A stretch of 64,000 nt of DNA from an archaeon (lineage in GTDB: Archaea; Thermoproteota; Nitrososphaeria; Nitrososphaerales; Gagatemarchaeaceae): the NCBI GenBank assembly GCA_902812495.1, contig CADDZR010000002.1, forward strand, positions 1-64,000. Reading direction: 5' to 3'. Below the pieces are notes generated by a model, which was not told where the DNA came from, searched no databases, and saw nothing but the letters and a program-made list of their open reading frames with translations. Of the stretch, positions 4,259 through 53,770 are shown in pieces; positions within the stretch are counted from its first letter, which is position 1, and every line of letters begins with the position of its first letter. Both the position numbers and the translations under genes were made by a program.

Positions 4259-4284
4259 CCATCTTAAAAGTACCAAGATAAAAG

Positions 4285-4707
4285 ATGTCATCTATAGTCT
4301 CAAGGAAGTTTTCAGAGGAGCTTGGTTTCCTGCTCGGGAGATCTGTTTCTATCGAAACAAAGGAAGGCAAGCAATATTCAGGTATACTAGCTGCTATAGA
4401 TGAGAGGCTGAATGTTGTTCTCGAGAAGGTTGCAGGTGCAGGTGAGGGTGTTCATAAGCTTGTAATAAATGGGGATAATGTTAAAGAGATAAAGCTGATG
4501 GAGAAACCTTTTGATCTAAGAGGGCTTGCAGAGAGGCTTAACAGGGTCTTCCCAGATCTGGTCAGGGTTAGGGAAGATATTGGAGCAATAATAGTAATGG
4601 ACAAAATAAAGGTTACAGAAAAAGGTGTAGTTGAAGGATCGGGACTTGCTGCAGAGAGAGTAAAAGCAATATTTGATGAGTTTGTGAGAGAAACAAGGAA
4701 GAGTTAA
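4285..4707 (+). CDS. Sm-like archaeal protein, SmAP3 type
   Basis: A 140-residue protein with an N-terminal Sm fold (about 10-72): the Sm1 segment is around GKQYSGILAAIDERLNVVL and the Sm2 signature is VINGDNVKEI. A C-terminal alpha/beta extension (about 75-140) follows. Plain archaeal Sm proteins are about 75-90 residues; the extra domain is the mark of the SmAP3 type. Sm proteins form rings that bind U-rich RNA and take part in RNA processing. The stop codon directly abuts the ATG of tgtA, so the two genes form a translationally coupled RNA-processing pair under the TATA box at 4249-4258. Confidence 0.85.
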   Translation: MSSIVSRKFSEELGFLLGRSVSIETKEGKQYSGILAAIDERLNVVLEKVAGAGEGVHKLVINGDNVKEIKLMEKPFDLRGLAERLNRVFPDLVRVREDIGAIIVMDKIKVTEKGVVEGSGLAAERVKAIFDEFVRETRKS

Positions 4708-6207
4708 ATGGATTTTGAAGTCCTAGAGACGGACCTGCTGGGAAGGATAGGCAGGCTTGAGGTTAAAGGTAAGAGTATCGAGACGCCTTACTTGTTTCCT
4801 GTCGTTCATCCAATAAAGCAACAGGTTAGCACTAAGAAAATAAGGGAAATTGGATTTAACGGAGTGATGACAAACTCATACATAGCATACAGAAGGGCAA
4901 GGAATGAGTCTGTGGAAAGGGGGATACATGATTTAATTGGATTTGACGGCCTTGTCATGACAGATTCAGGAGGATATCAGGTTCTGGAGTACGGAGAGGT
5001 AGAAATTTCGTACAGGGAAATAGCCGACTTCCAGGCAAAGATAGGAACCGACATTGCTGTAACATTAGACAAGCCTACCGGTGACACATTATCAAGGAAG
5101 AGAGCAGCCGAAACTGTTAGGAAGAGCCTTGTGGATGCAATAAAGACAAAAAAAGAGTTTAGTGGATGCGGAACAGAATGGGTTGGACCTGTCCAGGGCG
5201 GGCTCTTCCCTGACCTCCTAAGGAAGTCGGCAACTGAGCTTGTAAAGGCGGGTTTCAGATTCCTTGCACTTGGGAGTCCTGTCCAGATAATGGAGAACTA
5301 CAGATTTTCAGAGCTGGTTAGAATGATTTCGGAAGTGAGAAACGCAATTCCTTTTTCGATACCCCTTCACCTATTTGGAGCAGGCCATCCGCTTACAATT
5401 GCACTCGCAGTAGCTCTTGGATGCGATACCTTTGACTCAGCAAGCTACATTCTCTTTGCAAGGCAGGGAAGGTACATGACAGAGAGTACTGTTCTATCTA
5501 TAGAGAACATGGAATATTTACCTTGCAGCTGCGAAGTCTGCATTAAGAGAAGCATTTCTGAAATTAGGGAGATGGAAAGGCAGGAAAGGACATCTCTAGT
5601 TGCACTTCACAACCTGTATATTCTTAGAAACGAGCTGCTTAGGACAAAGCAAGCAATAGCCGAAGGGAGGCTCTGGGACCTGTTACATGAGAGGGCATCA
5701 TCCCACCCGAGTCTAATGGATGCTTTCATTTCAGTTGCACTTGGAGCATCTTCGATGGTTGATACAACCCGTGTCGTCAAACAGAGAGGCCTTTTCATTA
5801 GAAGTTCTATAGACTTTCTTAGGCCAGAGATACAATCTTCAAGAAAGATGCTCGAGAGATGTATGAGGGTTGATATGAAGGATGCGGTAATTGTTCCAGA
5901 CGAAGCTACTATGCCGCTTCCACGTTCTATTTATTCACAGCTATCCAAAAAGTTTGATGTGTACAGAATGCATCAGTGCCTTGGCGCATATCCTGCTGAA
6001 CTAGAGTTCACATACCCTTTTACACAAACAGTTGCAGCTTCATCCTACTTTGACATGGAGTTCGTTCTTTCTGAGGCAAGAAAGCTAGTTGGCATGGGTT
6101 ACTCAAACGTATTCCTCCTAGAGAGAAAGGGCAAGGAGTACGTTAAGAAAAGGCTCACGAGTAAACAGGACTTGAAGGTCTTTTCTCCTTCTGCTCTAGT
6201 TCCCTGA
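4708..6207 (+). CDS. tgtA: Archaeosine tRNA-guanine transglycosylase, PUA-less form
   Basis: This enzyme exchanges guanine at position 15 of archaeal tRNA for preQ0, the first step toward archaeosine. In the 499-residue protein the catalytic TIM barrel spans about 1-350. It shows MTDSGGYQVLEYG (catalytic Asp near 90) and FDSASYILFARQGRYMT (second catalytic Asp near 245). The zinc site is CSCEVC plus the His of HNLYILR. C1- and C2-like segments follow to about residue 495. Family members carrying a C-terminal PUA domain run to about 580 residues; that domain is absent here, so a separate PUA protein may complete it. The 3' end overlaps the convergent PAC2 gene by 53 bp. Confidence 0.93.
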   Translation: MDFEVLETDLLGRIGRLEVKGKSIETPYLFPVVHPIKQQVSTKKIREIGFNGVMTNSYIAYRRARNESVERGIHDLIGFDGLVMTDSGGYQVLEYGEVEISYREIADFQAKIGTDIAVTLDKPTGDTLSRKRAAETVRKSLVDAIKTKKEFSGCGTEWVGPVQGGLFPDLLRKSATELVKAGFRFLALGSPVQIMENYRFSELVRMISEVRNAIPFSIPLHLFGAGHPLTIALAVALGCDTFDSASYILFARQGRYMTESTVLSIENMEYLPCSCEVCIKRSISEIREMERQERTSLVALHNLYILRNELLRTKQAIAEGRLWDLLHERASSHPSLMDAFISVALGASSMVDTTRVVKQRGLFIRSSIDFLRPEIQSSRKMLERCMRVDMKDAVIVPDEATMPLPRSIYSQLSKKFDVYRMHQCLGAYPAELEFTYPFTQTVAASSYFDMEFVLSEARKLVGMGYSNVFLLERKGKEYVKKRLTSKQDLKVFSPSALVP

Positions 6208-6850
6208 CCTCGCTCTCGAGCTCCTCTGCGCCCTTAATTAGAGGTGAGACATCTACTGTGAAACCGTACCTTCTTGAAAGAAATTCTACTGCATTTGCAG
6301 CTGCCCTTGGATCTATCCTCTCCGTGCTCGAGTAGGCTAGAACAGCGAAGGCTGGGAAATTTTTCATCTCAAAGAAGTTAAGGAGTGTTGCAACAGGACC
6401 AACAATCATCCTATCATCCTCGAGAAGAGGTTCTTCATTCATCTTTTTTGCCATGATCATCGCAGACGTCATAGCAACCCTGTACTTTGTATCATCTGTT
6501 CTAAGCGACTCGTCAAGTCCCCCTACCAAAGCAACCTCTTCTACTCCAGAGTTAATTACCCACGCTGCGAAAGACCTGTAGAATTCGTTTTCCTTCTCCC
6601 TCGAAGGAAGTATCTCCGACTTAAATAATGATAGCCTTCCAGCAAGATAAATCTCGTATGGTGTAGATATTTTGCCGGAAGAGAGTGATGATATTGCTGG
6701 TGCGTGTTCGTAATCTATAAAGCAGAGCCTCTCGGCCTTAAGCTCCCTTATCAGGAACCTGACAGTCCAGTAGCCTGTGGCACCTATGCCGTGAAACCCA
6801 GCCACAAGAACCTTTCCATCAAGTCTTGTATCCTCAGGTATAACCTTCAA
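6155..6850 (-). CDS. PAC2-family protein (proteasome-assembly-chaperone-like)
   Basis: A 231-residue protein of the archaeal PAC2 family: an N-terminal beta strand into a glycine-rich turn (VLVAGFHGIGATG), the ALVGGLDESLRTDD segment, and MIVGPVATLLNFFEMKNFPAFAVLAYS. The family is related to eukaryotic proteasome assembly chaperone 2, but its archaeal function is not firmly established. The charged C-terminal tail lies in the 53 bp overlap with tgtA. A TATA-like element on the minus strand near 6874-6884 predicts a near-leaderless transcript. It is divergent from aCPSF2. Confidence 0.82.
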   Translation of the reverse strand: MKVIPEDTRLDGKVLVAGFHGIGATGYWTVRFLIRELKAERLCFIDYEHAPAISSLSSGKISTPYEIYLAGRLSLFKSEILPSREKENEFYRSFAAWVINSGVEEVALVGGLDESLRTDDTKYRVAMTSAMIMAKKMNEEPLLEDDRMIVGPVATLLNFFEMKNFPAFAVLAYSSTERIDPRAAANAVEFLSRRYGFTVDVSPLIKGAEELESEVRELEQKEKRPSSPVYS

Positions 6851-6945
6851 CGTTTCCTACCTACATTTAGAGGGGATAAAACAGTATCTATGGCAAAAGG
6901 GAAAAGTTTAAACGTGTTGCAACAGCATAAAACATGTAGCGATTT

Positions 6946-35362: not shown

Positions 35363-35529
35363 TCTGTGCCAAATGGTTGTGTTTCAGACAAAATTTCTTT
35401 GGAATCCGACTTGGCCTGTGCAACATGGAGAATAGAAATGAACCTTCCCGTTTGAAGATGATATTCTCTTTAAGTTTTTTCATTTATGAATTTACAATAC
35501 ATACACATAAATACGTACTTCACATTCCT

Positions 35530-35538
35530 TTTATATTA
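35530..35538 (+). promoter_or_regulatory. TATA box deciding the start of the secreted protein gene
   Basis: The motif tttatatta is centred about 24 bp before the ATG at 35558, which therefore should be the first codon of a leaderless mRNA. The upstream in-frame ATG at 35486 lies before the promoter. Confidence 0.6.
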
Positions 35539-35557
35539 TACAGAAATAAACACAAAT

Positions 35558-36262
35558 ATGAAAATATCTACTTCGCTGAGCATAGCAATGATAACAGCTT
35601 TGCTTGCATTTTCCCTAATCAGCATAAAAGCAGTGAATGCAACTCCTTCTACACCGTTCAAACAATGCCCTCCCGTTGGACAAAATACAGGTTGTGCAAT
35701 CCTGATATGGATAGATTCAAACGGATCAGTTACCATATTAAGCGACAACTCTCAGGGGCCTTATGACGGAGTAGAGGATACTCTAGTGGGTGTTCAGGAC
35801 GATTGCACAAAATGCGGTGTTATAACAAGCATTGTTATATCTGCAACTAGTGGCACTTACCCCCCAATCTTCTATTTAGACGTTGACGGAGCCTGCTCTG
35901 GTATTTATTCACCCAATCCTCCACAAGCATCTTGCCCTGGTGGAGCATTCGCAACAGCCGACCCGCAGGATTACGAGTCAAACAACGTGACATTCTCTGG
36001 TATATCGTCTGATCAAAACACAGGAACTTTGAACTTCAATCCTGGTCTGACGGGCGGTACTCACGCATGGTTCAGTCTAGAGAACAGTCTTAGCTCAACC
36101 CAGCTTAATATACAAACGATTAGTACAACTGCTACAACACAAACAACAGGTGTTCCAGAGTTTCCAGCAAGCACATTGCTCATGATAGGACCTCTAGCTT
36201 TAATGTTGGCCGTCCTCATTAGGATGAGGAAGGAAAGGGCGGCAACAAAGTTAGAGGCCTGA
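35558..36262 (+). CDS. Secreted surface protein with PEF-type C-terminal sorting signal
   Basis: A 234-residue protein with a clear signal peptide from the ATG at 35558 (MKISTSLSIAMITALLAFSL, cleavage near VNA). A beta-rich domain of about 160 residues follows, with six cysteines near two Gly/Pro-rich stretches (CTKCG, CSG, SCPGG), then a Ser/Thr-rich linker. The C-terminus VPEFPASTLLMIGPLALML plus basic tail (RMRKER) has the tripartite form of archaeosortase substrates: short Pro-Glu-Phe motif, membrane helix, basic end. Function unknown; no archaeosortase gene is in the window. The gene is monocistronic. Confidence 0.75.
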   Translation: MKISTSLSIAMITALLAFSLISIKAVNATPSTPFKQCPPVGQNTGCAILIWIDSNGSVTILSDNSQGPYDGVEDTLVGVQDDCTKCGVITSIVISATSGTYPPIFYLDVDGACSGIYSPNPPQASCPGGAFATADPQDYESNNVTFSGISSDQNTGTLNFNPGLTGGTHAWFSLENSLSSTQLNIQTISTTATTQTTGVPEFPASTLLMIGPLALMLAVLIRMRKERAATKLEA

Positions 36263-38510: not shown

Positions 38511-39455
38511 TTAGTTGTGCATGGATCTTGCTTGTCTTGATACTATGGCTCTAAATATCTCACCAAACTGTTCCCTGACAGTGTACTCTGCAACATTAAC
38601 TGAAAGGGCAACATCCCTCTGCGTAATAAGCTTCTTTCTATTCTCAATTTCAGAGAGTATGCACTCTGCAGCGTAAACTGCCGTTGCAGCAACAGCACAT
38701 GGATTGTGACCCCTCGTACCATCGCCCCTTACTTTCTCTATGAGTTCTAGTGCTTTGCTGTAAAGCCTCCTGAAATAAGGTAACTTTGATTGTCCTGAAG
38801 AGATTATGCTTCTCTCAATATCTTGATTTGATGAAAGTCTTGATATAACCCTTGCAACGTAATCTGAAGGGTTTCTTGGCATTTGCTTTACTGGAGAATC
38901 AATATATAGCTTCACAAGCGAGGAGACCTTGACCCTCTTTCCAAGTGCCTTGTGTGCATCCACTATTTCCTTCATGCCAACACTTGTTACATTCTCAATC
39001 TTGCATGCAGCAATTATTGAATAGGCAGATATAGCTGCTACATTTACAGCACATTCCTTTGAAGATAGTATTTTCCTAGATATCATGATTGCATTTCCCA
39101 TTACAAACTTTGGAAGGAGGAGTTTCTCACATACCCTTTCTATTAACTTTACACAGGAATAAAGTGAGCCGCTTTCCCTCCCAGTAAAATCGGAGACTGT
39201 TTTCAGGTACCTGAAGCTTGATGAGATTTTTGAGAAGCCGTGGGAAAATATCTCTTCGTAGCTGTAGTCAATTGGTCCAAGATAACCACCAAGAGAATTT
39301 TGTATATAGTCTATTGCTTTAACGCTATTCTCTGACCTTGGTTCCACAACTTCCTTACCAAATACAATCCCGCAAGAACGGCACACAAGCTCGTCTCCTG
39401 CGTCTATTATCCTACCCGAACATTCAGGACAGACCTCTACACTTGTTATCATCAT
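38511..39455 (-). CDS. tfb: Divergent transcription factor B (TFIIB-like)
   Basis: A TFB paralogue of about 314 residues. The N-terminal zinc ribbon is CPEC...CRSCG. Two cyclin folds (about 85-180 and 190-310) include the ACKIENV and AVAATAVYAAECI segments, the latter typical of TFB repeats. The linker between ribbon and cyclins is short (about 30 residues) and lacks the usual DDSPEWR-type B-reader; only GGYLGPIDYS resembles the G-x-x-x-G-P motif. It may therefore set the start site differently or act as an alternative TFB. The ATG at 39455 is chosen because the ribbon begins just after it; the frame is open to 39509. Confidence 0.85.
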   Translation of the reverse strand: MMITSVEVCPECSGRIIDAGDELVCRSCGIVFGKEVVEPRSENSVKAIDYIQNSLGGYLGPIDYSYEEIFSHGFSKISSSFRYLKTVSDFTGRESGSLYSCVKLIERVCEKLLLPKFVMGNAIMISRKILSSKECAVNVAAISAYSIIAACKIENVTSVGMKEIVDAHKALGKRVKVSSLVKLYIDSPVKQMPRNPSDYVARVISRLSSNQDIERSIISSGQSKLPYFRRLYSKALELIEKVRGDGTRGHNPCAVAATAVYAAECILSEIENRKKLITQRDVALSVNVAEYTVREQFGEIFRAIVSRQARSMHN

Positions 39456-39534
39456 TGGGAAATGCAAACAAAAAACATGTAATCGTTCATTTACTGCATT
39501 ACAGAACATCAGAGTTATCTAGAACGTTGCTTGA

Positions 39535-40548
39535 ATGCATTCCAATGTAGCAGGGAGGGTGAGATGCATGAAAATGTTCCAAGAGTTAAAAAATACACCC
39601 AATGAGGCAAAAGATATGAAACTAAGGAAGGTAACTGACATGCATCTCAAAGGCTCTAAAGAAATTTTTGATATGGTAGAAAAGATGAGAAATGCAGGTG
39701 GTTTTATGGGAAGAAACCTTGCTGAAGCAGCAATAATATTCTCTATCATGGTAAGGGACAAGAAATGCACTAAGATGCTTTCATTCCCTGCAGATATAGT
39801 TGCAACAGGGCTTAGAGGCGTGCTGATAGATATTGTAAAACATCGTATGGTAGACGCAATAATAACCACATGTGGCACGATAGACCATGACATAGCAAGA
39901 ACATACTCGAACTACTTCCACGGCAGCTTCTATTTGGACGATGAAGAAGTAAGGAAAATGGGATACCATAGGCTGGGCAATATACTGATACCCAAGGATG
40001 CATACGGTCCTAAGATAGAGGAAAAAGTCCAGCCGATTTTGGAGGAGTTTTACACATCCTCTGAAAAAAGGATAAGCCCTTCTAAGCTATGCAGCATCAT
40101 AGGAAAGAAGCTCGGGAAGAGTTCCCTCCTGTATTGGTGTGATAAGATGGATGTGCCCGTCTTCGTACCAGGCATAGTCGACGGTGCTGTTGGAAGCCAG
40201 ATATGGCTATTCTGCGAGAGGAGGAGGGACTTCCAGATTGATGTTATAGGGGATGAGAGGAGGCTTGCTGATATGATATTCACCTCTGAAAGGAGGGGAG
40301 GACTTGCCATTGGTGGAGGTATATCGAAGCACCACCTTATCTGGTGGAGTCAGTTCAAGGGTGGATTGGATTATGCATGCTACGTCACAACTGCCGTTGA
40401 GTACGATGGTTCTCTTAGCGGAGCACATGTACGGGAAGCTGTTTCGTGGGGCAAGGTCAAGCCAAATGCAAGAAAAGTAACAGTTTTTTCAGATGCGACT
40501 GTTGCGCTGCCTTTAATATATGCATATGTTGTCTCTTCAAAGCGGTAG
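39535..40548 (+). CDS. dys: Deoxyhypusine synthase
   Basis: A 337-residue enzyme that transfers the aminobutyl group of spermidine to a lysine of aIF5A. Conserved parts are AGGFMGRNLAEAA, the NAD-contacting TTCGTIDHDIAR, PVFVPGIVDGAVGSQ, GGGISKHH, GGLDYACYVTTAVEYDGSLS and the catalytic Lys307 in EAVSWGKVKP. The first 11 residues before MKMFQEL are weakly supported; the ATG at 39568 is an alternative start. The gene is divergent from tfb, and its last 12 bp overlap the pilin-like operon on the other strand. Confidence 0.93.
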   Translation: MHSNVAGRVRCMKMFQELKNTPNEAKDMKLRKVTDMHLKGSKEIFDMVEKMRNAGGFMGRNLAEAAIIFSIMVRDKKCTKMLSFPADIVATGLRGVLIDIVKHRMVDAIITTCGTIDHDIARTYSNYFHGSFYLDDEEVRKMGYHRLGNILIPKDAYGPKIEEKVQPILEEFYTSSEKRISPSKLCSIIGKKLGKSSLLYWCDKMDVPVFVPGIVDGAVGSQIWLFCERRRDFQIDVIGDERRLADMIFTSERRGGLAIGGGISKHHLIWWSQFKGGLDYACYVTTAVEYDGSLSGAHVREAVSWGKVKPNARKVTVFSDATVALPLIYAYVVSSKR

Positions 40549-41307
40549 GATGTTTGAACGGTAGACAGAGGAGGAGAAAGTTCCAAACGGGCCATCTATT
40601 TCGTTCTGGATTATAGTCAGTGTATACTCCAGATAGCCGCATCCTTTTCCGTCTAAAAATTTGTAGTGCAATGCGGAATCAAAACCGTGAAGTAGAGCCT
40701 CTGTCTTTATCTCAAAACTCAGAAACGAAACGGCTTTAGAAACTATTGTTTTGTTGCATACACCTCTGAGTGAAGAAATAACTTTATCGATAATGCGCGA
40801 AGAAACAAGACAGAAATTGCTTGCCTCACCTATACGGAAATCCAAGTGCAAGAAATATCTTCCCTGCCTTTCTATCTTTACCAATCCATTGTTTGTAAAT
40901 GATGAGAAGTGGTACTGGACTATGAAGTTTGTCCCGTCAGTTGAAGTACCTGAAAATGTTCCAAATATCCCTTCCTGTTGATCAGAGTACCCCATGAATG
41001 GTACTATGTACTCTTCAAGGGAAAAGTTCTCCCCTCCTTCATTCAAATCCATCCTTGGAATTGAAGAAAGCCCGGAAGAGCAGGAAATTGAATGGTTGGA
41101 AAGGAAGGACTGCTCTCCATAAAGCAACCTGTATGCAGCTGAGGCTGTGTGCATAAGTCTATCTGTATCGAGGGCAATCTCTGCATTTAAGTATTCTTCA
41201 TAAACCATTTTCTCTTTTAACGAGGATGCAACTAGGTAGCTTGAAGAGAGAAGCGATACAAACAGAATTGCGGAGACAAGAGTTGCTGCTACTGCTCTTC
41301 TCTGCAT
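40537..41307 (-). CDS. Pseudopilin-like secreted protein (last gene of the pilin-like operon)
   Basis: A 256-residue protein with a short basic N-terminus (MQRRAVAATL), one hydrophobic helix (about 7-30) and a large extracellular domain with six cysteines and an NHS glycosylation-type site. No family recognised. The layout (N-terminal helix plus globular beta domain) and its place as the last of five similar genes suggest a minor pilin or pilus-tip protein. The start overlaps the end of the previous gene by 19 bp, so expression is coupled. Confidence 0.65.
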   Translation of the reverse strand: MQRRAVAATLVSAILFVSLLSSSYLVASSLKEKMVYEEYLNAEIALDTDRLMHTASAAYRLLYGEQSFLSNHSISCSSGLSSIPRMDLNEGGENFSLEEYIVPFMGYSDQQEGIFGTFSGTSTDGTNFIVQYHFSSFTNNGLVKIERQGRYFLHLDFRIGEASNFCLVSSRIIDKVISSLRGVCNKTIVSKAVSFLSFEIKTEALLHGFDSALHYKFLDGKGCGYLEYTLTIIQNEIDGPFGTFSSSVYRSNILPL

Positions 41308-41645
41308 GCTGAAGCATACACTCTCCTGCTAACAAGCTGCAGTGAAATGTAAATACAGTCTGCAGGTAGTTCTACATGAACGCATCCATCACCGTACAAT
41401 GAGAAATTTATCTTGAGAGAAATGTTTGAGCTTAAAAGGGAGAGTAAACAAAGCTGCTCGCTACTTGCACTCTGGAAAAAATGCAGGCCTCTTCCGTAGA
41501 CAATATTTAGGAGGTAATTCCTGAGTGATATTTCATGCTGAATTCTACTTGAATCTTCGATATAGCCCGACGGATTTGTAAATGCTATCAGAATTACACA
41601 GATTATACCCACGGCAGAGGCTGAAGCTATGTCTAGTGTTCTCAA
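41289..41645 (-). CDS. Pseudopilin-like protein
   Basis: A 118-residue protein from a TTG that overlaps the stop of the 34-residue peptide gene (TTGA). One N-terminal hydrophobic helix (about 5-22, ASASAVGIICVILIAF) is followed by an extracellular domain with four cysteines and NIS/NFS sites. No family recognised; it is grouped with the minor pilins by layout and operon position. It overlaps the next gene by 19 bp. Confidence 0.6.
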   Translation of the reverse strand: MRTLDIASASAVGIICVILIAFTNPSGYIEDSSRIQHEISLRNYLLNIVYGRGLHFFQSASSEQLCLLSLLSSNISLKINFSLYGDGCVHVELPADCIYISLQLVSRRVYASACREEQ

Positions 41646-41746
41646 CCAAGAAGCCTACCTGAGATTATTGAAAGAGAAACCGCAATAAGGATTAACATAA
41701 TAGCAATAAATATAGCAACATCCAAGTAAGTTTCTATCTCAAACAT
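41642..41746 (-). CDS. 34-residue single-helix membrane peptide in the pilin-like operon
   Basis: ATG at 41746 to TGA at 41642 encodes MFEIETYLDVAIFIAIMLIL followed by a short tail ending SGRLLG. It is almost entirely one membrane helix with an acidic N-terminus; the ETY segment recalls the E-Y motif of Flp/Tad pilins. It overlaps the previous gene by 8 bp and its TGA overlaps the next gene's TTG. Such double translational coupling is strong evidence that it is translated. It could be a minimal pilin, an assembly chaperone or a regulator of the ATPase. No family recognised. Confidence 0.68.
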   Translation of the reverse strand: MFEIETYLDVAIFIAIMLILIAVSLSIISGRLLG

Positions 41747-42101
41747 TTTTTATCGTAACATATCCTTCCAAGTTTGTAGCATTGTAGTTCCCATCTCCAG
41801 AAAAGTTAAAACTGTTCGTTCTCACTTTCAACATGTAAACGAAACTGTACTGACCCGATGCTATAACAGCTGTCCCATTTACTTTTAGCTCGGACCCTGT
41901 AAAAGGCACCGAAAAAATGATACTTTCCCCTGGTTTAAGATTGTCGAGCATCTTCCCAATACCTTCAACAACGGAGGAAACAAGATATTTCTTTGAAAGA
42001 ACAGAAACGCTCGTGACTGAGGGATATGAGAAAAAGTAAAGAGAGAAACATGCAATAAAATAGATTGCAAGGGAGATGTATGATTCGAAGGAAGAAACCA
42101 T
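41739..42101 (-). CDS. Pseudopilin-like protein
   Basis: A 120-residue protein: short N-terminus with FESYISLA (E-x-Y as in pilins), hydrophobic helix (about 8-26), then an extracellular beta-rich domain with no cysteines and several NFS/NAT-type sites. The start overlaps the previous gene by one base and the stop overlaps the 34-residue peptide gene. No family recognised; minor pilin by layout. Confidence 0.62.
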   Translation of the reverse strand: MVSSFESYISLAIYFIACFSLYFFSYPSVTSVSVLSKKYLVSSVVEGIGKMLDNLKPGESIIFSVPFTGSELKVNGTAVIASGQYSFVYMLKVRTNSFNFSGDGNYNATNLEGYVTIKNV

Positions 42102-42460
42102 TACCTGAACACCGCCTTTAGTTCCTTGCTTTCAAAATAAAAAATAACTCTGCCATCACCATTTATTTTAAAATTGAAAGAGCATATGAAAGGTATTGTT
42201 GCGTTAAGCTTTTCGTTTGAGTATGCAAGGTAAAATGTATTGTTTGAACATGAAAGGACCTCCCCAGCCCTCCCTGCCTTTACCGACCAGTAGCCATGAT
42301 TTGCTGCGTTGTAAATACCTCCTAGGTAGGCTGAGAGGTCTGCCTTGAGCTGTGCCGACGATGCATGGGAAATAAAAGAATTTAATACAGTAATAGAGAG
42401 CAAGGAAAAGATTAGGCTTGCTGTCAAGGCAAGTACGTACTCCACTATCTGAGCCAACAT
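42101..42460 (-). CDS. Pilin-like protein, first gene of the minus-strand operon
   Basis: A 119-residue protein whose N-terminus MLAQIVEYVLALTASLIF resembles the mature end of the Flp-like pilin at 45261 (AQLIEEALLLSVALV), with Glu at position five of the shared AQ..E segment and a following Tyr. A hydrophobic helix (about 5-28) precedes a small domain with two cysteines. It lacks the basic leader expected for prepilin peptidase. A minus-strand TATA box at 42478-42487 predicts a leaderless mRNA for the whole five-gene operon. Confidence 0.65.
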   Translation of the reverse strand: MLAQIVEYVLALTASLIFSLLSITVLNSFISHASSAQLKADLSAYLGGIYNAANHGYWSVKAGRAGEVLSCSNNTFYLAYSNEKLNATIPFICSFNFKINGDGRVIFYFESKELKAVFR

Positions 42461-42477
42461 TTAAAAAAACAAACAGA

Positions 42478-42508
42478 GAATATAAGCAACAACGTGGCTC
42501 TTTTAATG
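42478..42508. promoter_or_regulatory. Divergent TATA boxes of the two pilus operons
   Basis: Minus strand: gcttatattc (42478-42487) is about 23-28 bp before the ATG at 42460. Plus strand: ctcttttaat (42499-42508) is about 24 bp before the GTG at 42528. Both transcripts should be leaderless, and the 67-bp spacer leaves room for shared regulation. Confidence 0.55.
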
Positions 42509-42527
42509 AAGTATACATTTTCTGCAT

Positions 42528-43943
42528 GTGTTCACGGAAAGGCTTTTCAGGTTAGTTTCAAAGAAAAGAACAAAAGGAAGAAAAGATCCTCTCCTTATTG
42601 AGCTCTTCCCAAGGGAGAAGTTTTGCAATCACACCACACTCCTCAGGAAAGTTGAGCAAAAAGAGTGTTTTAACCTCTACAGGGTTTTCCTCTGCCTCTC
42701 TGACGAGGAAATGTCACTCGTAAGAAAGTCTGTTTCAATTGTCTCTGACACATTAGACCCTGAACTAGTTAAACCCCTTACATTTGAAAGACTGGTTGAA
42801 GTTATAATGCAAGAGGTTTCACCTTTGCTATCGCAAATACAGGATATGAAAAGGTTGAGAGAGGTTTCAGAACTTGTAGCCTACGAATGTATTGGACTTT
42901 CAAGGTTCTATGCCCTTGCAACAGATAACATGGTGACAGAGTTTTTTTGTGACTCCAAGTTCACACCAATTTATCTCGACCACATGAGCTTCGGCAGATG
43001 TGAAACGGAGATATTTCTAACAGAGAGGGAGAGGGATGCAATAGAGACGCATCTAGACACTTTTGGTGGTTACAGCCTTGACTTTAGGACACCTTCCTTG
43101 AAACATGACATTGAAGTCTCTGGAAAGAGGCTTAGAGTCTCGCTCGACCTTGAGCCTCTAGCAGTATACGGATTTTCTCTTGACGTAAGGAGGCTCGACC
43201 CCTCAGGGTTGAGAATAGGGCAGCTTATCTCAATGAGAACTTTAACTGCAGAGGCAGCATCATTCCTAATTGCATGGGCAGAACTTGGAGGTAATATTTG
43301 CATAGTTGGTGAGACAGGCTCGGGCAAAACAACTCTGATGAACGCAATAGACAGGGAACTCAATCCGAAATTAAGAAGGGTTTACATTGAGGACGCGGTT
43401 GAGACTCCAGACCTTCTCAAGGAGGGATACCATCAGCTGAAACTCCGTGTTGAGCCCTACGACAAAGCAAGGAACATCAGGACAAAGGAGTTCGAGTCTG
43501 TTAAGATGCTACACAGGTCACCTGATATGATGATCCTGAGCGAGATACAGTCTGAGGAGCATAGTAAGGCACTCTTCAGTTCCCTTGAGTCAGGTATAAG
43601 GGGTCTGCAGACTTTTCATGGAAGCTCACCTGAACAGGCGCTGAGAAGATGGAGGCTGCTACACGGTATATCCGAGATAGCACTTCAAGATCTTGGTTTG
43701 CTAGTGCAGATGTCACGGCCGGATAGGTTAAAGCCCACGAGACTAGTCTCAAGGATATCTCAGGTATCACTGCAGGATGGAGAACCGTCATTGGTTGATA
43801 TTTTTCAGATCTCAGGTGGGAAACTCACTAGAAACATAGCTGCAAAAATAGTTCCTCCTCCAGGTAAGACGGCAGAAGAATTTTACTCCAGGGTTGATGA
43901 GAAAATGAGGGAATTCGAGATAGATGAAATACGAAATTCTTGA
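42528..43943 (+). CDS. Type II/IV secretion ATPase (TadA/GspE-like)
   Basis: A 471-residue hexameric-type ATPase that powers pilus assembly. The N-terminal part (about 1-225) matches archaeal pilus ATPases. Walker A is GETGSGKTT (261-269), the Asp box lies around VYIEDAVETPD, Walker B is MMILSEIQSEEH (334-345) and the His box is TFHG (362-365). The GTG start agrees with the TATA box at 42499-42508. The gene for the first membrane platform subunit starts 20 bp inside its 3' end, so they are co-translated. Confidence 0.92.
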   Translation: MFTERLFRLVSKKRTKGRKDPLLIELFPREKFCNHTTLLRKVEQKECFNLYRVFLCLSDEEMSLVRKSVSIVSDTLDPELVKPLTFERLVEVIMQEVSPLLSQIQDMKRLREVSELVAYECIGLSRFYALATDNMVTEFFCDSKFTPIYLDHMSFGRCETEIFLTERERDAIETHLDTFGGYSLDFRTPSLKHDIEVSGKRLRVSLDLEPLAVYGFSLDVRRLDPSGLRIGQLISMRTLTAEAASFLIAWAELGGNICIVGETGSGKTTLMNAIDRELNPKLRRVYIEDAVETPDLLKEGYHQLKLRVEPYDKARNIRTKEFESVKMLHRSPDMMILSEIQSEEHSKALFSSLESGIRGLQTFHGSSPEQALRRWRLLHGISEIALQDLGLLVQMSRPDRLKPTRLVSRISQVSLQDGEPSLVDIFQISGGKLTRNIAAKIVPPPGKTAEEFYSRVDEKMREFEIDEIRNS

Positions 43944-44625
43944 GATTTATGGGATAGATAAGGTAAGGTTTGTAGCCTTAGTAACAGCTTTCTCTATCTC
44001 CGTCTTTATAGTATCACTTTTCCTAACTCTCAGACTTATTGGGACTACAGGTATTGCTTTCGCAGTCATTCTCGGGATTGTTTCAGGGTACATTTTGTTT
44101 ACCGAACCCTTGAGGGTTGCGAGGTACTCGTCTCTAATACAGTCAGAGGAAGCATCCACTTTCTTTTCTTTCATAAGTACAGCACATTCTGTAACAGGAT
44201 CAAGGACAAGGCCAATAATGCTTCTTGAACCAAGGGATTTTTCTTTCTCCAATGCTATAGTTAAGATGAAAAGGTCGATACTTCTTGGGAGAGATCTGGA
44301 AGGGACAATTCAAATCCTTGAAAGAGAAAGCTTCTCCTCAACTTTGTCTTCAGCCTTGAGCGCGTACAAGTCAAGAAGCGGATGGAAGAGAATTGAGTGG
44401 GAAGAAGAGTACAGCGCAAGCATATCTACATCGCTGCTGACACACGAGACTAAGGTTCCTCTATTCATTGCAGCTGTCTTCTTCTCTCCAATACTCCTTA
44501 CATTTCTCTCAATAACTTCACATCTCTATTCCTCTTCCCACCTTCTCTACATTTTCCTGTTCAACCTTGTTCTCGTAGACCTTGCTTACTTCTACTCGTC
44601 ATCCGAAAGGAGAATTCTTGAATGA
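43924..44625 (+). CDS. Pilus membrane platform protein, N-terminal half (TadB/ArlJ-like)
   Basis: A 233-residue protein with two hydrophobic helices near the N-terminus (about 14-60) and two near the C-terminus (175-220) around a cytosolic helical domain, the layout of one type II secretion system F domain. Archaeal platform proteins (ArlJ/PilC type) usually carry two such domains in about 500-550 residues. Here the platform is divided between this gene and the next (4 bp overlap), as in the bacterial TadB/TadC pair. Assignment is by topology and context. Confidence 0.7.
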   Translation: MKYEILEIYGIDKVRFVALVTAFSISVFIVSLFLTLRLIGTTGIAFAVILGIVSGYILFTEPLRVARYSSLIQSEEASTFFSFISTAHSVTGSRTRPIMLLEPRDFSFSNAIVKMKRSILLGRDLEGTIQILERESFSSTLSSALSAYKSRSGWKRIEWEEEYSASISTSLLTHETKVPLFIAAVFFSPILLTFLSITSHLYSSSHLLYIFLFNLVLVDLAYFYSSSERRILE

Positions 44626-45245
44626 AGAGAAGTAACCTCGATACACTTAGGGTTCTCTTCAAACTTCTCTCGATGGGAGAGAGTCTTTGCTATTCTCTTG
44701 TCAAGAGTATGCGTGTTTCCGAGCCCGATTCAAGTGTCGTTAGGGCTGTCTTCATGGGCCACCATCCTAGGAAGGTAATAGGTCTCTTTAAGGCAGAAAC
44801 AAAGGAGCAGAAGCTGCTCATAGCAATGGTGAAGAATGCAAGGATATCGGACACAGTGTTAGTGGGAAGACATGGGAGCAGGCTTCTAACCACATTTGAG
44901 AGATGGGAGAGGATGAGGGAATCCAGAAAGGGCATCTCGAAGGTCATGGCATTCAGGGGGTATATCATCTCTTCAATCCTTGGGTGCGTTCTTGCTGTAG
45001 TCTCAGGTATAGCACCAGTAGTTCTCTCCTTTTCGCTAAATGGCCAGTTAAGGATAGATCCATTTCCAATAGAGCTTTTCTCTCTAGCAATGGGTTTAAC
45101 TTCATCCATAACCATAGGCTTGTTCTTCGGTACAAGGAGGTTTTACGTCAACCCACTCTTAACTTTCTTCCTCTTCATCCTTGTGTACAGCTCCTTTTCT
45201 TCCATTGCAAATCTAGGTAGCTATGGTGGGCTCTTAAATAAATAG
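44622..45245 (+). CDS. Pilus membrane platform protein, C-terminal half (TadC-like)
   Basis: A 207-residue protein: a cytosolic helical domain (about 1-105, with KGISKVMAFRGYIISSILG before the first membrane helix) followed by three hydrophobic segments (about 108-130, 140-165, 172-192). With the preceding gene it makes the equivalent of a two-domain platform protein. The start overlaps the preceding stop by 4 bp; the pilin gene follows after 15 bp. Confidence 0.7.
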   Translation: MKRSNLDTLRVLFKLLSMGESLCYSLVKSMRVSEPDSSVVRAVFMGHHPRKVIGLFKAETKEQKLLIAMVKNARISDTVLVGRHGSRLLTTFERWERMRESRKGISKVMAFRGYIISSILGCVLAVVSGIAPVVLSFSLNGQLRIDPFPIELFSLAMGLTSSITIGLFFGTRRFYVNPLLTFFLFILVYSSFSSIANLGSYGGLLNK

Positions 45246-45260
45246 CAACGTTCATTTTAT

Positions 45261-45464
45261 ATGAAAGGAAAAATTGTTCAGGAAAGGAAGGCTGCACAGT
45301 TAATAGAGGAAGCACTTCTTCTCTCTGTCGCACTTGTAGCCCTCTCGATGCTCGTTGGAGGGATAGAATCAATACTAAAGGAAAGCGCTAGCTACACTTC
45401 AAACATATGGAACAGCATAGTTTCGGCAATCAACGGCGTCCTTGGATCCCTCTTTCACTGGTGA
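45261..45464 (+). CDS. Flp-like major pilin precursor
   Basis: A 67-residue prepilin. A basic leader (MKGKIVQERKA) ends in K-A, the archaeal class III signal pattern, with predicted cleavage after Ala11. The mature protein begins AQLIEEALLLSVAL, so Glu is at position +5 as in type IV pilins. The mature 56 residues are one hydrophobic helix with a short amphipathic end (SIVSAINGVLGSLFHW), close to Tad/Flp pilins. It is the best candidate for the structural subunit of the filament made by this locus. Confidence 0.78.
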   Translation: MKGKIVQERKAAQLIEEALLLSVALVALSMLVGGIESILKESASYTSNIWNSIVSAINGVLGSLFHW

Positions 45465-45608
45465 GTTTAACTGGAGTCTTTCCTCTCGAGGCTTAGATGG
45501 TCTCTTTCTAGACACGAAATTCTTCAGAGAGACAGTATAAGGATTGTTGACACAAAATACCTGACTGTAAGGAAGGGTAGCAGGCACAGGTCCTTTGCTT
45601 TCATCAGA

Positions 45609-47177
45609 GTGTATCTAGAGCAGCAAGAAGACGAAAGGACTGAGTTTTCTTCGAGTGTTAGAGCTGCGGTGCAGAGTCAGAGGATAAGGGGTCTCTTCCA
45701 GGGGCTCAGGAAGTCAGAGATACCATATCTATACATCAACGCAATGATACCTGAGAAAAACGAGGAGCACGAGGTCTTTGAGTTTGACCTAGCTGTAGGA
45801 ACATGGGTTGACGGTGAGGAGAAGGGCATAGAAAAGGACCTTGCGGAACTTGAGCAGAGAGCAAGCATACTTGCTGCAAGCCTCTCTGTTGCAATGCCTG
45901 AAGCCTCTATCAGGAGGCTCTCAAGGAACGAGCTCTCCTCCTTTATTTCTTCAATACTCTTTCCATCCGATAGGGAGATGCCTCAAAGAGCTGACCCTTC
46001 CTCAATAAGTACTGTTCAGAGCTTTGGTAGCGATAACCCGAGCAAAAACCGTGTTTCTGTAGCTCCTTCATTTTACGTTCCGAACATATCCGAATCTTCA
46101 GGCAAGATTATTCTTGGAAACATACTTTCCGGAGAAAAGGAAGTACACCAGCTTAAGATAAGGTTTGAGGACATGAGAAGGCATGTCACAATCCTTGGCA
46201 TGACAGGAAGCGGCAAGACAACTACATCCATATCCATAATGTCTCAGGTTGCTTCTACTGGCCTTCCTGTTCTTATACTTGACTGGCACAACGAGTACAG
46301 GAGGAGCATAACCTCACTGGGAGGCAGGGTTTTTTCCCCAGGAATTGACGATTTTGTACTCAACCCTCTTAGCACATACTCCTCAGAGATAACTGAGCAT
46401 GTTGCAATAGTGACAGACATATTTTCAGACATATACCACTTTACTCATCCGCAGGCGTACATGTTTAGGAACGCTCTACAGAGATGTATCTCAGAAGCAA
46501 AAGACGAACCGATACTGGAAGATCTTGTCAGGGTAATAGAGTCTTTTCCCCTAAGGTCTGCTTACGATAACGAAACAAAGGTTGCTCTTCTAAGAAGGCT
46601 TGTGCCGCTAACACAGGGCCAGGTAGGGAAGGCAATGAATGGCCACTCCTCAATTAGCTTGGATGAGCTACTTGCCTCAGTCGCATGCCTTGAGCTTGGA
46701 CATATGAGAGACGTACAGTCGAGGAGCATATTCACAGAGATAGCCCTGAAGATGCTCTACGAATTCAGGACAGGTAACACGGATAATGTTGAGCACTTAA
46801 CTGTTGTTGAGGAAGCAAGGAATATTGCACCAGCTAGGAGGGATGAAGATCCACCAAGTGTGGGGGAAAGGATTGTTTCCGAGTTAAGAAAGTTTGGCGA
46901 ATCGATGGTCTTTGTTGCGCAGTTCCCCACGCAGCTTGCGTCTGAGATAGTGAAGAACTCGGCTGTTAGAATTGTGCACAGGATAGCGTGGCACGAGGAC
47001 ATGGATATAGTCGCTAACTCTCTTGGCCTTAACCAGCAACAGAAGGAATATCTTGGGATGCTTGAGGTTGGGGATGCGGTTGTTAGCCTTGCAAGACTAC
47101 CCAAGCCGATACTTGTTAGAGTAAAACAGCAGGGCTACGAAGAGAACAGGAGAGTGAATTTTTCCTCTGTGCCGTAG
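45609..47177 (+). CDS. HerA/VirB4-like hexameric ATPase linked to the pilus locus
   Basis: Residues are numbered from the GTG at 45609 (522 in total). The HerA/FtsK-type core has Walker A GMTGSGKTTT (197-206), LILDWHNEYR, a Walker B-like LTVVEEARNI and the C-terminal FVAQFPTQLASEIVKN. HerA-family motors pump DNA; VirB4/CedB relatives serve DNA transfer. The frame stays open and protein-like back to 45471 (for example RDSIRIVDTKYLTVRKG) but has no ATG, GTG or TTG there, so the true N-terminus probably lies up to 46 codons upstream. It overlaps the convergent AK6-like gene by 43 bp. Confidence 0.85.
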   Translation: MYLEQQEDERTEFSSSVRAAVQSQRIRGLFQGLRKSEIPYLYINAMIPEKNEEHEVFEFDLAVGTWVDGEEKGIEKDLAELEQRASILAASLSVAMPEASIRRLSRNELSSFISSILFPSDREMPQRADPSSISTVQSFGSDNPSKNRVSVAPSFYVPNISESSGKIILGNILSGEKEVHQLKIRFEDMRRHVTILGMTGSGKTTTSISIMSQVASTGLPVLILDWHNEYRRSITSLGGRVFSPGIDDFVLNPLSTYSSEITEHVAIVTDIFSDIYHFTHPQAYMFRNALQRCISEAKDEPILEDLVRVIESFPLRSAYDNETKVALLRRLVPLTQGQVGKAMNGHSSISLDELLASVACLELGHMRDVQSRSIFTEIALKMLYEFRTGNTDNVEHLTVVEEARNIAPARRDEDPPSVGERIVSELRKFGESMVFVAQFPTQLASEIVKNSAVRIVHRIAWHEDMDIVANSLGLNQQQKEYLGMLEVGDAVVSLARLPKPILVRVKQQGYEENRRVNFSSVP

Positions 47178-47674
47178 GTGAGGGACCAGTCTACCTGTCC
47201 TGTCTTCTTTTTCCCTAGCATTATCCTAGCTATATCCCTCGAGGCTCTTTCAGGGTCTGAGAAGGTTGTGTCGTATTCGCTGACTTTCTCTTTACCAAAT
47301 TTTTCGTAGCACTGGTATGCAATAAGTCCTATTAGTTCAGCTTCCACATTTTCCCTTATCTTTTTACTGCTGTATTTTCTTGAGGCAAGTCTATGCTTTA
47401 AAACAATCGGGTCGCACCGAAGTACAACAACATGCTTAACATCCTCCTTATCAACTACATGTGGTATCAGATGGCCGTAAATGAGTGATTGTTCCCTTAT
47501 TTCTTTTAGAACCTTTGCAAGAGAAACTGTGTCTACATACCCTTTGCTCGAAGCACCTGATTTGGATGCAATCGAATTTATTGAAACAGGATTTAGCTTC
47601 AGTATCTTGCAAAGAATAGGTGCTATAGTTTTCTTACCTGTACCAGGCGTTCCAGTAAGGCAGTAAAACCTCAT
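47135..47674 (-). CDS. Adenylate kinase 6 / Fap7-like NTPase
   Basis: A 179-residue P-loop kinase. The P-loop is GTPGTGKKT (8-16), where the usual final KT/KS is extended as KKT. The family core shows YVDTVSLAKVL, HVVVLRCDPIVLKHRL and SSKKIRENVEAELIGL. Fap7/AK6 acts in maturation of the small ribosomal subunit and has adenylate kinase activity. The C-terminal tail overlaps the HerA-like gene by 43 bp. A small membrane-protein gene ends one base before its start. Confidence 0.85.
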   Translation of the reverse strand: MRFYCLTGTPGTGKKTIAPILCKILKLNPVSINSIASKSGASSKGYVDTVSLAKVLKEIREQSLIYGHLIPHVVDKEDVKHVVVLRCDPIVLKHRLASRKYSSKKIRENVEAELIGLIAYQCYEKFGKEKVSEYDTTFSDPERASRDIARIMLGKKKTGQVDWSLTYGTEEKFTLLFSS

Positions 47675-52787: not shown

Positions 52788-53522
52788 ATGGAATTCATTG
52801 ACGTGCACTCACATTTCGAAAGCATTGGAAGCGAGATTGAGAAACTTTTATCCTCAGTCCGAATAAGAGTTGTTTGCGTTGCCACAGATAAGGAGAGTTC
52901 TTTAAATATAATTCAGAACGGCTTGCCTTACGCTTTTGTAGGGGTTCATCCATCATGCGCCGGTTCTGATGAAGATATCTCGTGGTTGAACGAGATTGCT
53001 GCAGTAGCTTTTGGTATTGGCGAGACAGGATTGGACCCGAAGTATGGGCCGCTCGAGCCTCAGGAGAAGATTTTTATGAAACAGCTTGATATTGCTGAAA
53101 AACTTCAAAAACCCGTGCAGGTCCACTCCAGAAATGCTGCAAAGAAATGTCTGGAGATACTCGGTAGCTATAAATTATCTAGAGTTCTGATGCACTGGTT
53201 TGATCAAGAGGAACTAACTAAGGAAGTAAATTCCATGGGCTACTTTGCTTCCTTTGGACCTGCCTTGCTTTATTCAAAAAAGCTTGAAAGAATAGTCGAA
53301 AAGATAGACACAAGCTTAATACTTACGGAAAGCGACTATCCCATACAATACACTCCACTCCGTGGCATGTCCGGACCCGTCCTTATCCCAAGTGTCGTCT
53401 TCAAGGTATCTCAGATATTGGGGTACAAATTCGGCGATATGGCAGAACTAATAGCCGATAATGCAGAAAGGTTTCTGGGAAGAGTTAATTCTACCAATGC
53501 TCCCACACCCAGTAAAGCTTAA
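52788..53522 (+). CDS. TatD-family metal-dependent hydrolase
   Basis: A 244-residue TIM-barrel hydrolase. Metal ligands are visible: HSH (H7, H9) at the N-terminus, Glu in GIGETGLDP, His in VQVHSRNA, His in LMHWFDQ and Asp in TESDYP. TatD proteins are often 3'-5' exonucleases or deoxyribonucleases; the exact substrate here is unknown. A cttttatct element near 52754 predicts a leaderless start. Confidence 0.88.
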   Translation: MEFIDVHSHFESIGSEIEKLLSSVRIRVVCVATDKESSLNIIQNGLPYAFVGVHPSCAGSDEDISWLNEIAAVAFGIGETGLDPKYGPLEPQEKIFMKQLDIAEKLQKPVQVHSRNAAKKCLEILGSYKLSRVLMHWFDQEELTKEVNSMGYFASFGPALLYSKKLERIVEKIDTSLILTESDYPIQYTPLRGMSGPVLIPSVVFKVSQILGYKFGDMAELIADNAERFLGRVNSTNAPTPSKA

Positions 53523-53551
53523 CCATACCCATTAAAGAGCTTGGAGGGCAA

Positions 53552-53770
53552 ATGGACAGGATCAGGAGGTACGCACAACTACTCTTGGAGAAGTACCCCA
53601 ACCTATTCACACATGACTACGAAGAGAACAAGAAGGCAATTGACAAGGTTGCAATTGTCAGTTCAAAGCAGCTGAGAAATGAGCTCGCAGGTTATATAAC
53701 AAGGTACATAAGGGAATCCCAAGATAAGAAAGGAATAATAGAAGAAGTTGAAGCAAAGGAAGCGGGTTGA
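53552..53770 (+). CDS. rps17e: Small ribosomal subunit protein eS17
   Basis: A 72-residue basic protein with the eS17 pattern: RRYAQLLLEKYPNLFTHDYEENKKAIDKVAIV then SKQLRNELAGYITRYIRE. The length is normal for archaea. Its stop overlaps the TTG of the SerK-like gene, opening a tightly packed run eS17-SerK-like-MoaD-Cgi121. Confidence 0.9.
   Translation: MDRIRRYAQLLLEKYPNLFTHDYEENKKAIDKVAIVSSKQLRNELAGYITRYIRESQDKKGIIEEVEAKEAG

Follow-up and report, generated by a model that had tools for sequence, protein, structure and literature searches.

DNA uptake and exchange are largely unexplained in archaea outside the Sulfolobales and a few euryarchaea. In Saccharolobus islandicus CedD, whose role beside CedB is unexplained, is required for the import and not for the export of DNA (PMC11868833). 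Among bacteria, Micrococcus luteus uses Flp pili for transformation (PMC4322843). Here we analyse a locus in a 64,000-nucleotide stretch (the window) of an archaeal contig (CADDZR010000002.1, C2 in our numbering) that joins genes for a type IV pilus to a gene for a CedD-like ATPase of the HerA/VirB4 clade, a predicted DNA translocase (hereafter the motor). Most likely, although we hold this with moderate confidence, the locus encodes a type IV pilus apparatus that has its own CedD-type DNA motor and serves to take up or exchange DNA. The assembly comprises 1.34 Mb in 64 contigs and is ~95% complete; the named relatives that carry the locus are Nitrososphaerales/Thaumarchaeota metagenome-assembled genomes, Candidatus Gagatemarchaeum among them. 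The phylum-wide survey drew on a sample of 200 genomes, mostly metagenome assemblies, in which CedD-family genes were called at E at most 1e-40. As the profiles that map the pilus block and the motor were trained iteratively on these same loci, the NCBIfam matches, the tree and the neighbour profiles serve as independent evidence.

The motor, which contains the Walker A motif GMTGSGKT and the Walker B motif VVEEARN, ranks CedD first among NCBIfam families (1.6e-56), followed by HerA (1e-19), TraC/VirB4 (about 3e-9 to 6e-8) and CedB (8e-7). In an IQ-TREE phylogeny of 57 ATPase domains, the final version of which was rebuilt after very long branches were dropped, the pilus-linked motors form one clade (98/97) that includes two family paralogs. 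They join the CedD proteins of Sulfolobales and of other crenarchaea in a single clade (98/95), apart from NurA-partner HerA and CedB, although the long outgroup branches of HerA and CedB may be subject to mutual attraction, and the tree does not resolve how the CedD lineages branch. Grouping with NurA-partner HerA, one of two outcomes that a first-pass annotation of the window had named as fatal to its proposal, is therefore not what the tree recovers. A profile of the N-terminal domain matches the N-terminus of Sulfolobales CedD (E 1.8e-5, probability 78). In an AlphaFold2 model of this domain (mean predicted local distance difference test score, pLDDT, 79; predicted template modelling score, pTM, 0.70) VirB4/TrwK is the best, if weak, and the only coherent large match; the first 50 fold matches include no HerA and thus give no sign of a HerA-type (HAS-barrel) domain. 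With the full-length model (pLDDT 70) HerA and VirB4 are indistinct by E-value, while template modelling (TM) scores favour VirB4 (0.47-0.54 vs 0.37-0.47). The tree, the neighbouring genes and the N-terminal domain thus reject a NurA-partner HerA. The locus contains no NurA gene, the NurA matches of the genome lying on C13, where a separate HerA-NurA-Mre11 set is found, and on C19. An anti-phage HerA system was likewise rejected, as the PADLOC matches are generic to the HerA clade and no Sir2, DUF4297 or nuclease partner is present. Two further HerA-like genes occur in the same genome, one (L002, G000:C19) beside a NurA match and the other (L004, G000:C12) beside a NurA-like open reading frame (ORF).

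Mechanical ORF calling had started the motor at a GTG at 45609. The frame is, however, open from 45471, and homology to relatives begins at residues 2-6, ~46 codons upstream of that GTG. Relatives conserve these 46 codons, which places the start of the gene at, or immediately past, the stop of the preceding Flp-like gene; in several relatives the motor starts at a GTG that overlaps the Flp stop. No in-frame ATG, GTG or TTG occurs near 45471 in the window, so the gene may start at a CTG, or the assembly may contain an error of one base. The motor is a separate gene and is not fused to the pilus locus as the first-pass annotation had it. In one family the CedD-like gene is split into adjacent ORFs for the N-terminal and ATPase domains (L156:6981-8812, L157:7736-9558), and crenarchaeal CedD-like proteins of about 370 residues without the N-terminal domain were seen in L130, L131, L132, L134 and L138.

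The association of motor and pilus is conserved well beyond the window. The order pilus ATPase, two platform halves, Flp, CedD is present in 19 of 19 same-family contigs of sufficient length and recurs in many other families, which indicates that the arrangement is more than chance. In a search of 40 relatives the motor and the ATPase turned up in the same genomes, the exceptions being G004, where the ATPase alone gave a match, and G013, whose motor is a fragment at the end of a contig; G014 yielded no remnants of the locus. In the 200-genome sample the pilus ATPase profile leaves a clean gap, with 41 genomes scoring at least 345 bits and all others at most 225. CedD-family genes were found in 55 of the 200 genomes, 32 outside and 23 inside the Sulfolobus class. 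All 32 genomes outside this class also have the pilus ATPase ortholog, within 5 kb of the motor in 28 and on a different contig in four (G044, G130, G184 and G226); inside the class the ortholog is present in none of the 23. Flp lies directly upstream of the motor in each of the 20 pilus-linked loci fetched from outside the Sulfolobus class. The co-occurrence of the motor with TadA and platform genes, proposed by the first-pass annotation as a check, is thus borne out. Relatives standing mostly apart from pilus genes, the second outcome that would have refuted its proposal, are not what the sample shows outside the Sulfolobus class. These data also bear on a rival reading, in which a HerA of DNA repair stands next to an adhesion pilus through conserved synteny and nothing more. 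The surroundings do consist of conserved housekeeping genes, and synteny can persist without functional coupling. This explanation is nevertheless improbable: in the pilus-bearing families Flp and motor are closely coupled as genes, the genome has separate HerA/NurA pairs, and the NurA-partner type is ruled out by both the tree and the N-terminal domain.

The layout is that of two divergent operons, with five small pilin-like genes on the left and the ATPase, two membrane halves, the Flp-like gene and the HerA-like motor on the right. This arrangement had been described earlier with its 67-bp spacer, and the open frames lie where they had been placed. On the right, the pilus ATPase matches BasE (2e-19) and FlaI (5e-18) slightly above TadA (TIGR03819, 1.2e-15). 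It was rejected as an ortholog of the Ups, archaellum or Aap ATPases, its profile scoring all three alike (UpsE 134.7, ArlI 137.9 and AapE 133.7 bits). Neither platform half nor the Flp-like gene has a trustworthy Pfam or NCBIfam match, and these names are based on position, membrane segments, a prepilin motif and conservation. The TadA-type ATPase (T2SSE, TIGR03819) and gene order of the earlier description hold; its platform and Flp assignments carry no family match. The Flp-like prepilin is the most conserved protein of the set, with 59-81% identity in 16 relatives and 25 invariant positions, the last residue included; the family consensus is RRGAQLIEEALLLSVALVALSLLVGGIES, with an invariable terminal Trp. 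In two lineages a type IV prepilin peptidase (PF01478) is encoded within or near the locus (L156:2409-2972, L258:2478-3053), which supports prepilin processing. Another type IV pilus ATPase is encoded elsewhere in the window genome (L223, G000:C6:30000-43000), accompanied by a platform-like protein from a single gene and by a gene resembling A24-type peptidases.

All five frames reported for the left operon were found; they are linked by overlaps, and each encodes an N-terminal hydrophobic helix. Nearly all family sequences of p1 display E-x-x-E-Y at the extreme N-terminus, the window version being AQIVEY, and in relatives of p5 a short (R/K)R(A/G)V-type leader precedes the hydrophobic helix. 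Counterparts of p3 of like size and place were seen in L079 and L155 (43 residues each), with 102 residues in L156.

Lineages in which the motor is missing, divergent or broken bear on its role. Nine genomes contain the pilus ATPase without a CedD at the E threshold. Seven of these (families f41 and f49; L252-L257 and L259) retain ATPase, platform and Flp but have neither the motor nor the left operon at the locus, and wherever the view is complete the kinase comes straight after Flp. As two lineages keep the pilus core in this form, the motor looks dispensable for the filament. In the other two genomes, from the distant lineages f44 and f51, the CedD-like gene is divergent, and directly behind it stands a gene for an XPD/Rad3-family helicase (L250:11312-13099, L251:12518-14305). 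Helicases in two lineages and motor-less pili in two others suggest that the motor handles DNA rather than pilins, an argument weakened by the absence of the left operon from the motor-less loci. The opposite proposal is that the CedD-like ATPase, acting on Flp as VirB4 acts on VirB2, is a motor of pilus biogenesis or retraction that extracts Flp or disassembles the filament in the stead of PilT, which archaea, to our knowledge, lack; DNA would then not be its cargo. In its favour, Flp stands immediately upstream in every motor-bearing pilus locus, its stop frequently overlapping the start of the motor gene; no protein of the set is better conserved; and the N-terminal domain of the motor resembles VirB4. 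We nevertheless regard a pilin motor as unlikely, since, besides the motor-less and helicase-bearing lineages, crenarchaea retain CedD although they have neither this Flp nor this pilus ATPase, and their CedD functions in the import of DNA (PMC11868833).

Broken copies of the motor gene were also found. In G016 it is cut by about 91.5 kb (L051/L052, G016:C3:467714-559176), with TTCTCC repeated at both junctions and a fragment of a tyrosine recombinase at one of them. The TTCTCC site is also used in L085, and the G013 contig L084 begins at precisely this point; the break in L080 is at a different site in the gene and has an integrase ORF adjoining it. Prophages disrupt competence genes in pneumococcus (PMC12637031), and the resemblance of the archaeal motor to these bacterial genes in its fate is at most suggestive.

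The chromosomal setting provides a further link to CedD. In several crenarchaeal families, independent neighbour profiles identify PAC2, TGT, Sm, RPG (a protein of about 120 residues), CedD, a kinase, thermosome and S17e. Many other families share this frame, with a transcription factor B (TFB) gene and the pilus block lying between Sm/RPG and CedD; the kinase adjoins the CedD-like gene in several crenarchaeal families too. Having the same neighbours, the pilus block being absent in crenarchaea, the window motor and crenarchaeal cedD look orthologous by position. The TFB-like gene of the window was missed by a genome-wide PF00382 search, which gives three canonical TFBs elsewhere. In most families it adjoins the pilus block, where Sulfolobales have a short TFB beside RPG/Sm, and it is likely a dedicated regulator of the locus. 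In Sulfolobales cedD is convergent with thermosome, and the short TFB lies across thermosome from cedD. If G120 is, as we take it to be, S. acidocaldarius DSM 639, its short TFB would be TFB3. TFB3 is Saci_0665 (PMC6934391) and activates ups and ced genes (PMC9905601). In sequence the G120 factor matches the locus TFB weakly (E 2e-4 to 4e-3), and the link between locus TFB and TFB3 is thus one of position. It is conceivable, although we hold this tentatively, that the locus represents an ancient, chromosomally fixed DNA-import pilus of the Thermoproteota; the Sulfolobus import motor CedD, and perhaps TFB3, would be remnants in crenarchaea after loss of the pilus block between Sm/RPG and cedD, and Ups plus Ced would be the two-part successor to a single older machine. 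The window also encodes, at 35486-36262, a secreted protein whose C-terminus runs from VPEFPAST through a hydrophobic helix to RMRKER and resembles an archaeosortase sorting signal.

Table 1. Features of the pilus-motor locus and its flanks in the window
Feature	Position	Strand	Evidence or remark
Sm	4282-4704		upstream flank
TGT	4708-6204		upstream flank
PAC2	6158-6856		upstream flank
Divergent TFB-like transcription factor	38511..39509	-	TFIIB repeat, 3.7e-06
p5, minor prepilin-like protein, 256 residues	40537..41307	-	N-terminus M-QRRAVAATLVSAILF; present in family loci
p4, small protein with N-terminal helix	41289..41645	-	TTG start; orthologs in family loci
p3, 34-residue ORF, MFEIETYLDVAIFIAIMLIL...	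about 41642..41746	-	
p2, small protein with N-terminal helix	41739..42101	-	
p1, leaderless pilin-like protein	42101..42460	-	ExxEY-type motif near N-terminus
Spacer between divergent operons	42461..42527	.	67 bp
Pilus assembly ATPase, TadA/FlaI/BasE type	42528..43943	+	GTG start; T2SSE, 3.4e-17
Platform-like membrane protein, first half (putatively TadB-like)	43924..44625	+	position, membrane segments; relatives 24-30% identical
Platform-like membrane protein, second half (putatively TadC-like)	44622..45245	+	position, membrane segments, 24-36% identity in relatives
Flp-like major prepilin, 67 residues	45261..45464	+	consensus RRGAQLIEEALLLSVALVALSLLVGG..., C-terminal Trp; prepilin motif, conservation
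CedD-like (HerA/VirB4 clade) DNA-translocating ATPase, predicted	45471..47177	+	CedD NF053655, 1.6e-56; tree; N-terminal conservation; Walker motifs
Small nucleotide kinase (PRK03839 type), convergent	47135..47674	-	NF003012, 8.7e-28; probably housekeeping
S17e	53516-53767		

The gene set, its conservation, the relationship of the motor and its positional orthology with crenarchaeal cedD are computed results; from these we infer DNA as the cargo, the direction of import, the order of steps and the regulation. TadA/FlaI-type ATPases, together with a platform, polymerise prepilins. In the window the TadA/FlaI-type ATPase and the split platform would build a thin Flp-like filament whose putative minor pilins come from the left operon. 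Extracellular DNA, or DNA from a neighbouring cell, would be captured and brought to the membrane, where a CedD-like hexamer, docked by its VirB4-like N-terminal domain, would pull it into the cytoplasm. The TFB-like factor beside the operons probably controls expression of the machine, which as a whole may be a competence-like or exchange pilus. DNA could in principle travel the other way, the pilus making contact and the motor pumping DNA from a donor as in conjugation. A VirB4-like N-terminal domain together with a pilus would suit such a role, and pumps of the HerA/FtsK clade are generally known to work in both directions, depending on the system. Export is, however, rather improbable: deletion of CedD in Saccharolobus stops import and leaves export (PMC11868833), neither a relaxase nor a coupling protein was seen in the locus, and the cluster sits in the chromosome, in synteny with housekeeping genes, and not on a mobile element.

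Several observations weigh against an uptake pilus with a CedD-type motor. The motor scores 192 bits against the CedD equivalog cut-off of 600, although CedD is still the best match in the library. The structure prediction for its N-terminus, which the first-pass annotation had called for to set it against CedB/VirB4, gave VirB4/TrwK as the best fold match, but a weak one (TM at most 0.45, E about 2e-3). The N-terminal membrane hairpin of CedD is present in pilus-linked motors of Methanomethylicia and other families outside the Nitrososphaeria, and is absent from those of the Nitrososphaeria, the window's included. No channel gene occurs in the locus, CedA-type channels not having been searched genome-wide, and no ComEC scores above cut-off in the window genome or 24 relatives. 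As the motor-less lineages are also without the left operon, their pili may have changed function, and disruption by integrases can strike any gene. The pilus-coupled DNA transfer or uptake that had been proposed at first nevertheless gains from the linkage of the motor to the pilus ATPase and from its separation from NurA-partner HerA, while DNA movement, its direction and a channel remain conjectural parts of the proposal.

On this reading a single operon would be a candidate DNA-uptake route in many uncultured lineages, including Nitrososphaeria, Brockarchaeota, Methanomethylicia and others. It would provide a candidate partner and origin for CedD, and physically tie archaeal type IV pili to a DNA motor. 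The gene combination was not found described in the literature searched, outside the scope of which lay most subscription journals, and such a pilus, which probably moves DNA into cells, would be a previously undescribed route in these archaea.

The locus combines features of several described systems. With HerA of HerA-NurA the motor shares the DUF87 HerA-clade ATPase core, but it has no NurA neighbour, a different N-terminal domain and a separate branch in the tree. Like bacterial competence pili (ComG) with ComEC, the locus encodes an ATPase, a putative platform, a major pilin and several minor pilins, whereas no ComEC scores above cut-off in the 25 genomes and a CedD-like motor stands in its place. 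The Tad/Flp pilus, including the competence pilus of M. luteus (PMC4322843), has in common with it a TadA-type ATPase, a split platform that is putative in the window, a very short Flp-like prepilin and extra pilin-like genes; unlike that system the locus is archaeal, has no secretin or TadZ among its ORFs and ends its operon with a CedD-like motor. The Ted/Ced importers, which derive from type IV secretion systems (PMC9905601), similarly unite a VirB4/HerA-clade motor with a pilus, but their pilin is VirB2-like and their channel VirB6-like, neither being recognised in the window locus; nor was a CedA/TedA channel or CedA1/TedC pilin recognised there, no genome-wide search having been made. 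The first-pass annotation had seen a match to neither Ups, archaellum nor Ced/Ted. This holds for Ups and the archaellum, as the ATPase shows no preference and gene order differs from Ups; the locus does touch the Ced system, because the motor belongs with CedD. CedD (PMC11868833) is its best curated family and shares with it a clade, an apparently related N-terminal domain and, through crenarchaeal orthologs, a neighbourhood, the window motor differing in its pilus operon, sub-equivalog score and missing hairpin. As with the Ups pili that Sulfolobales use together with Ced, a type IV pilus would here be functionally tied to DNA exchange, although the ATPase displays no UpsE preference and the order differs from upsX-E-F-A-B. 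In Sulfolobales, however, the Ups and Ced genes are unlinked, whereas in the window pilus and motor form one operon.

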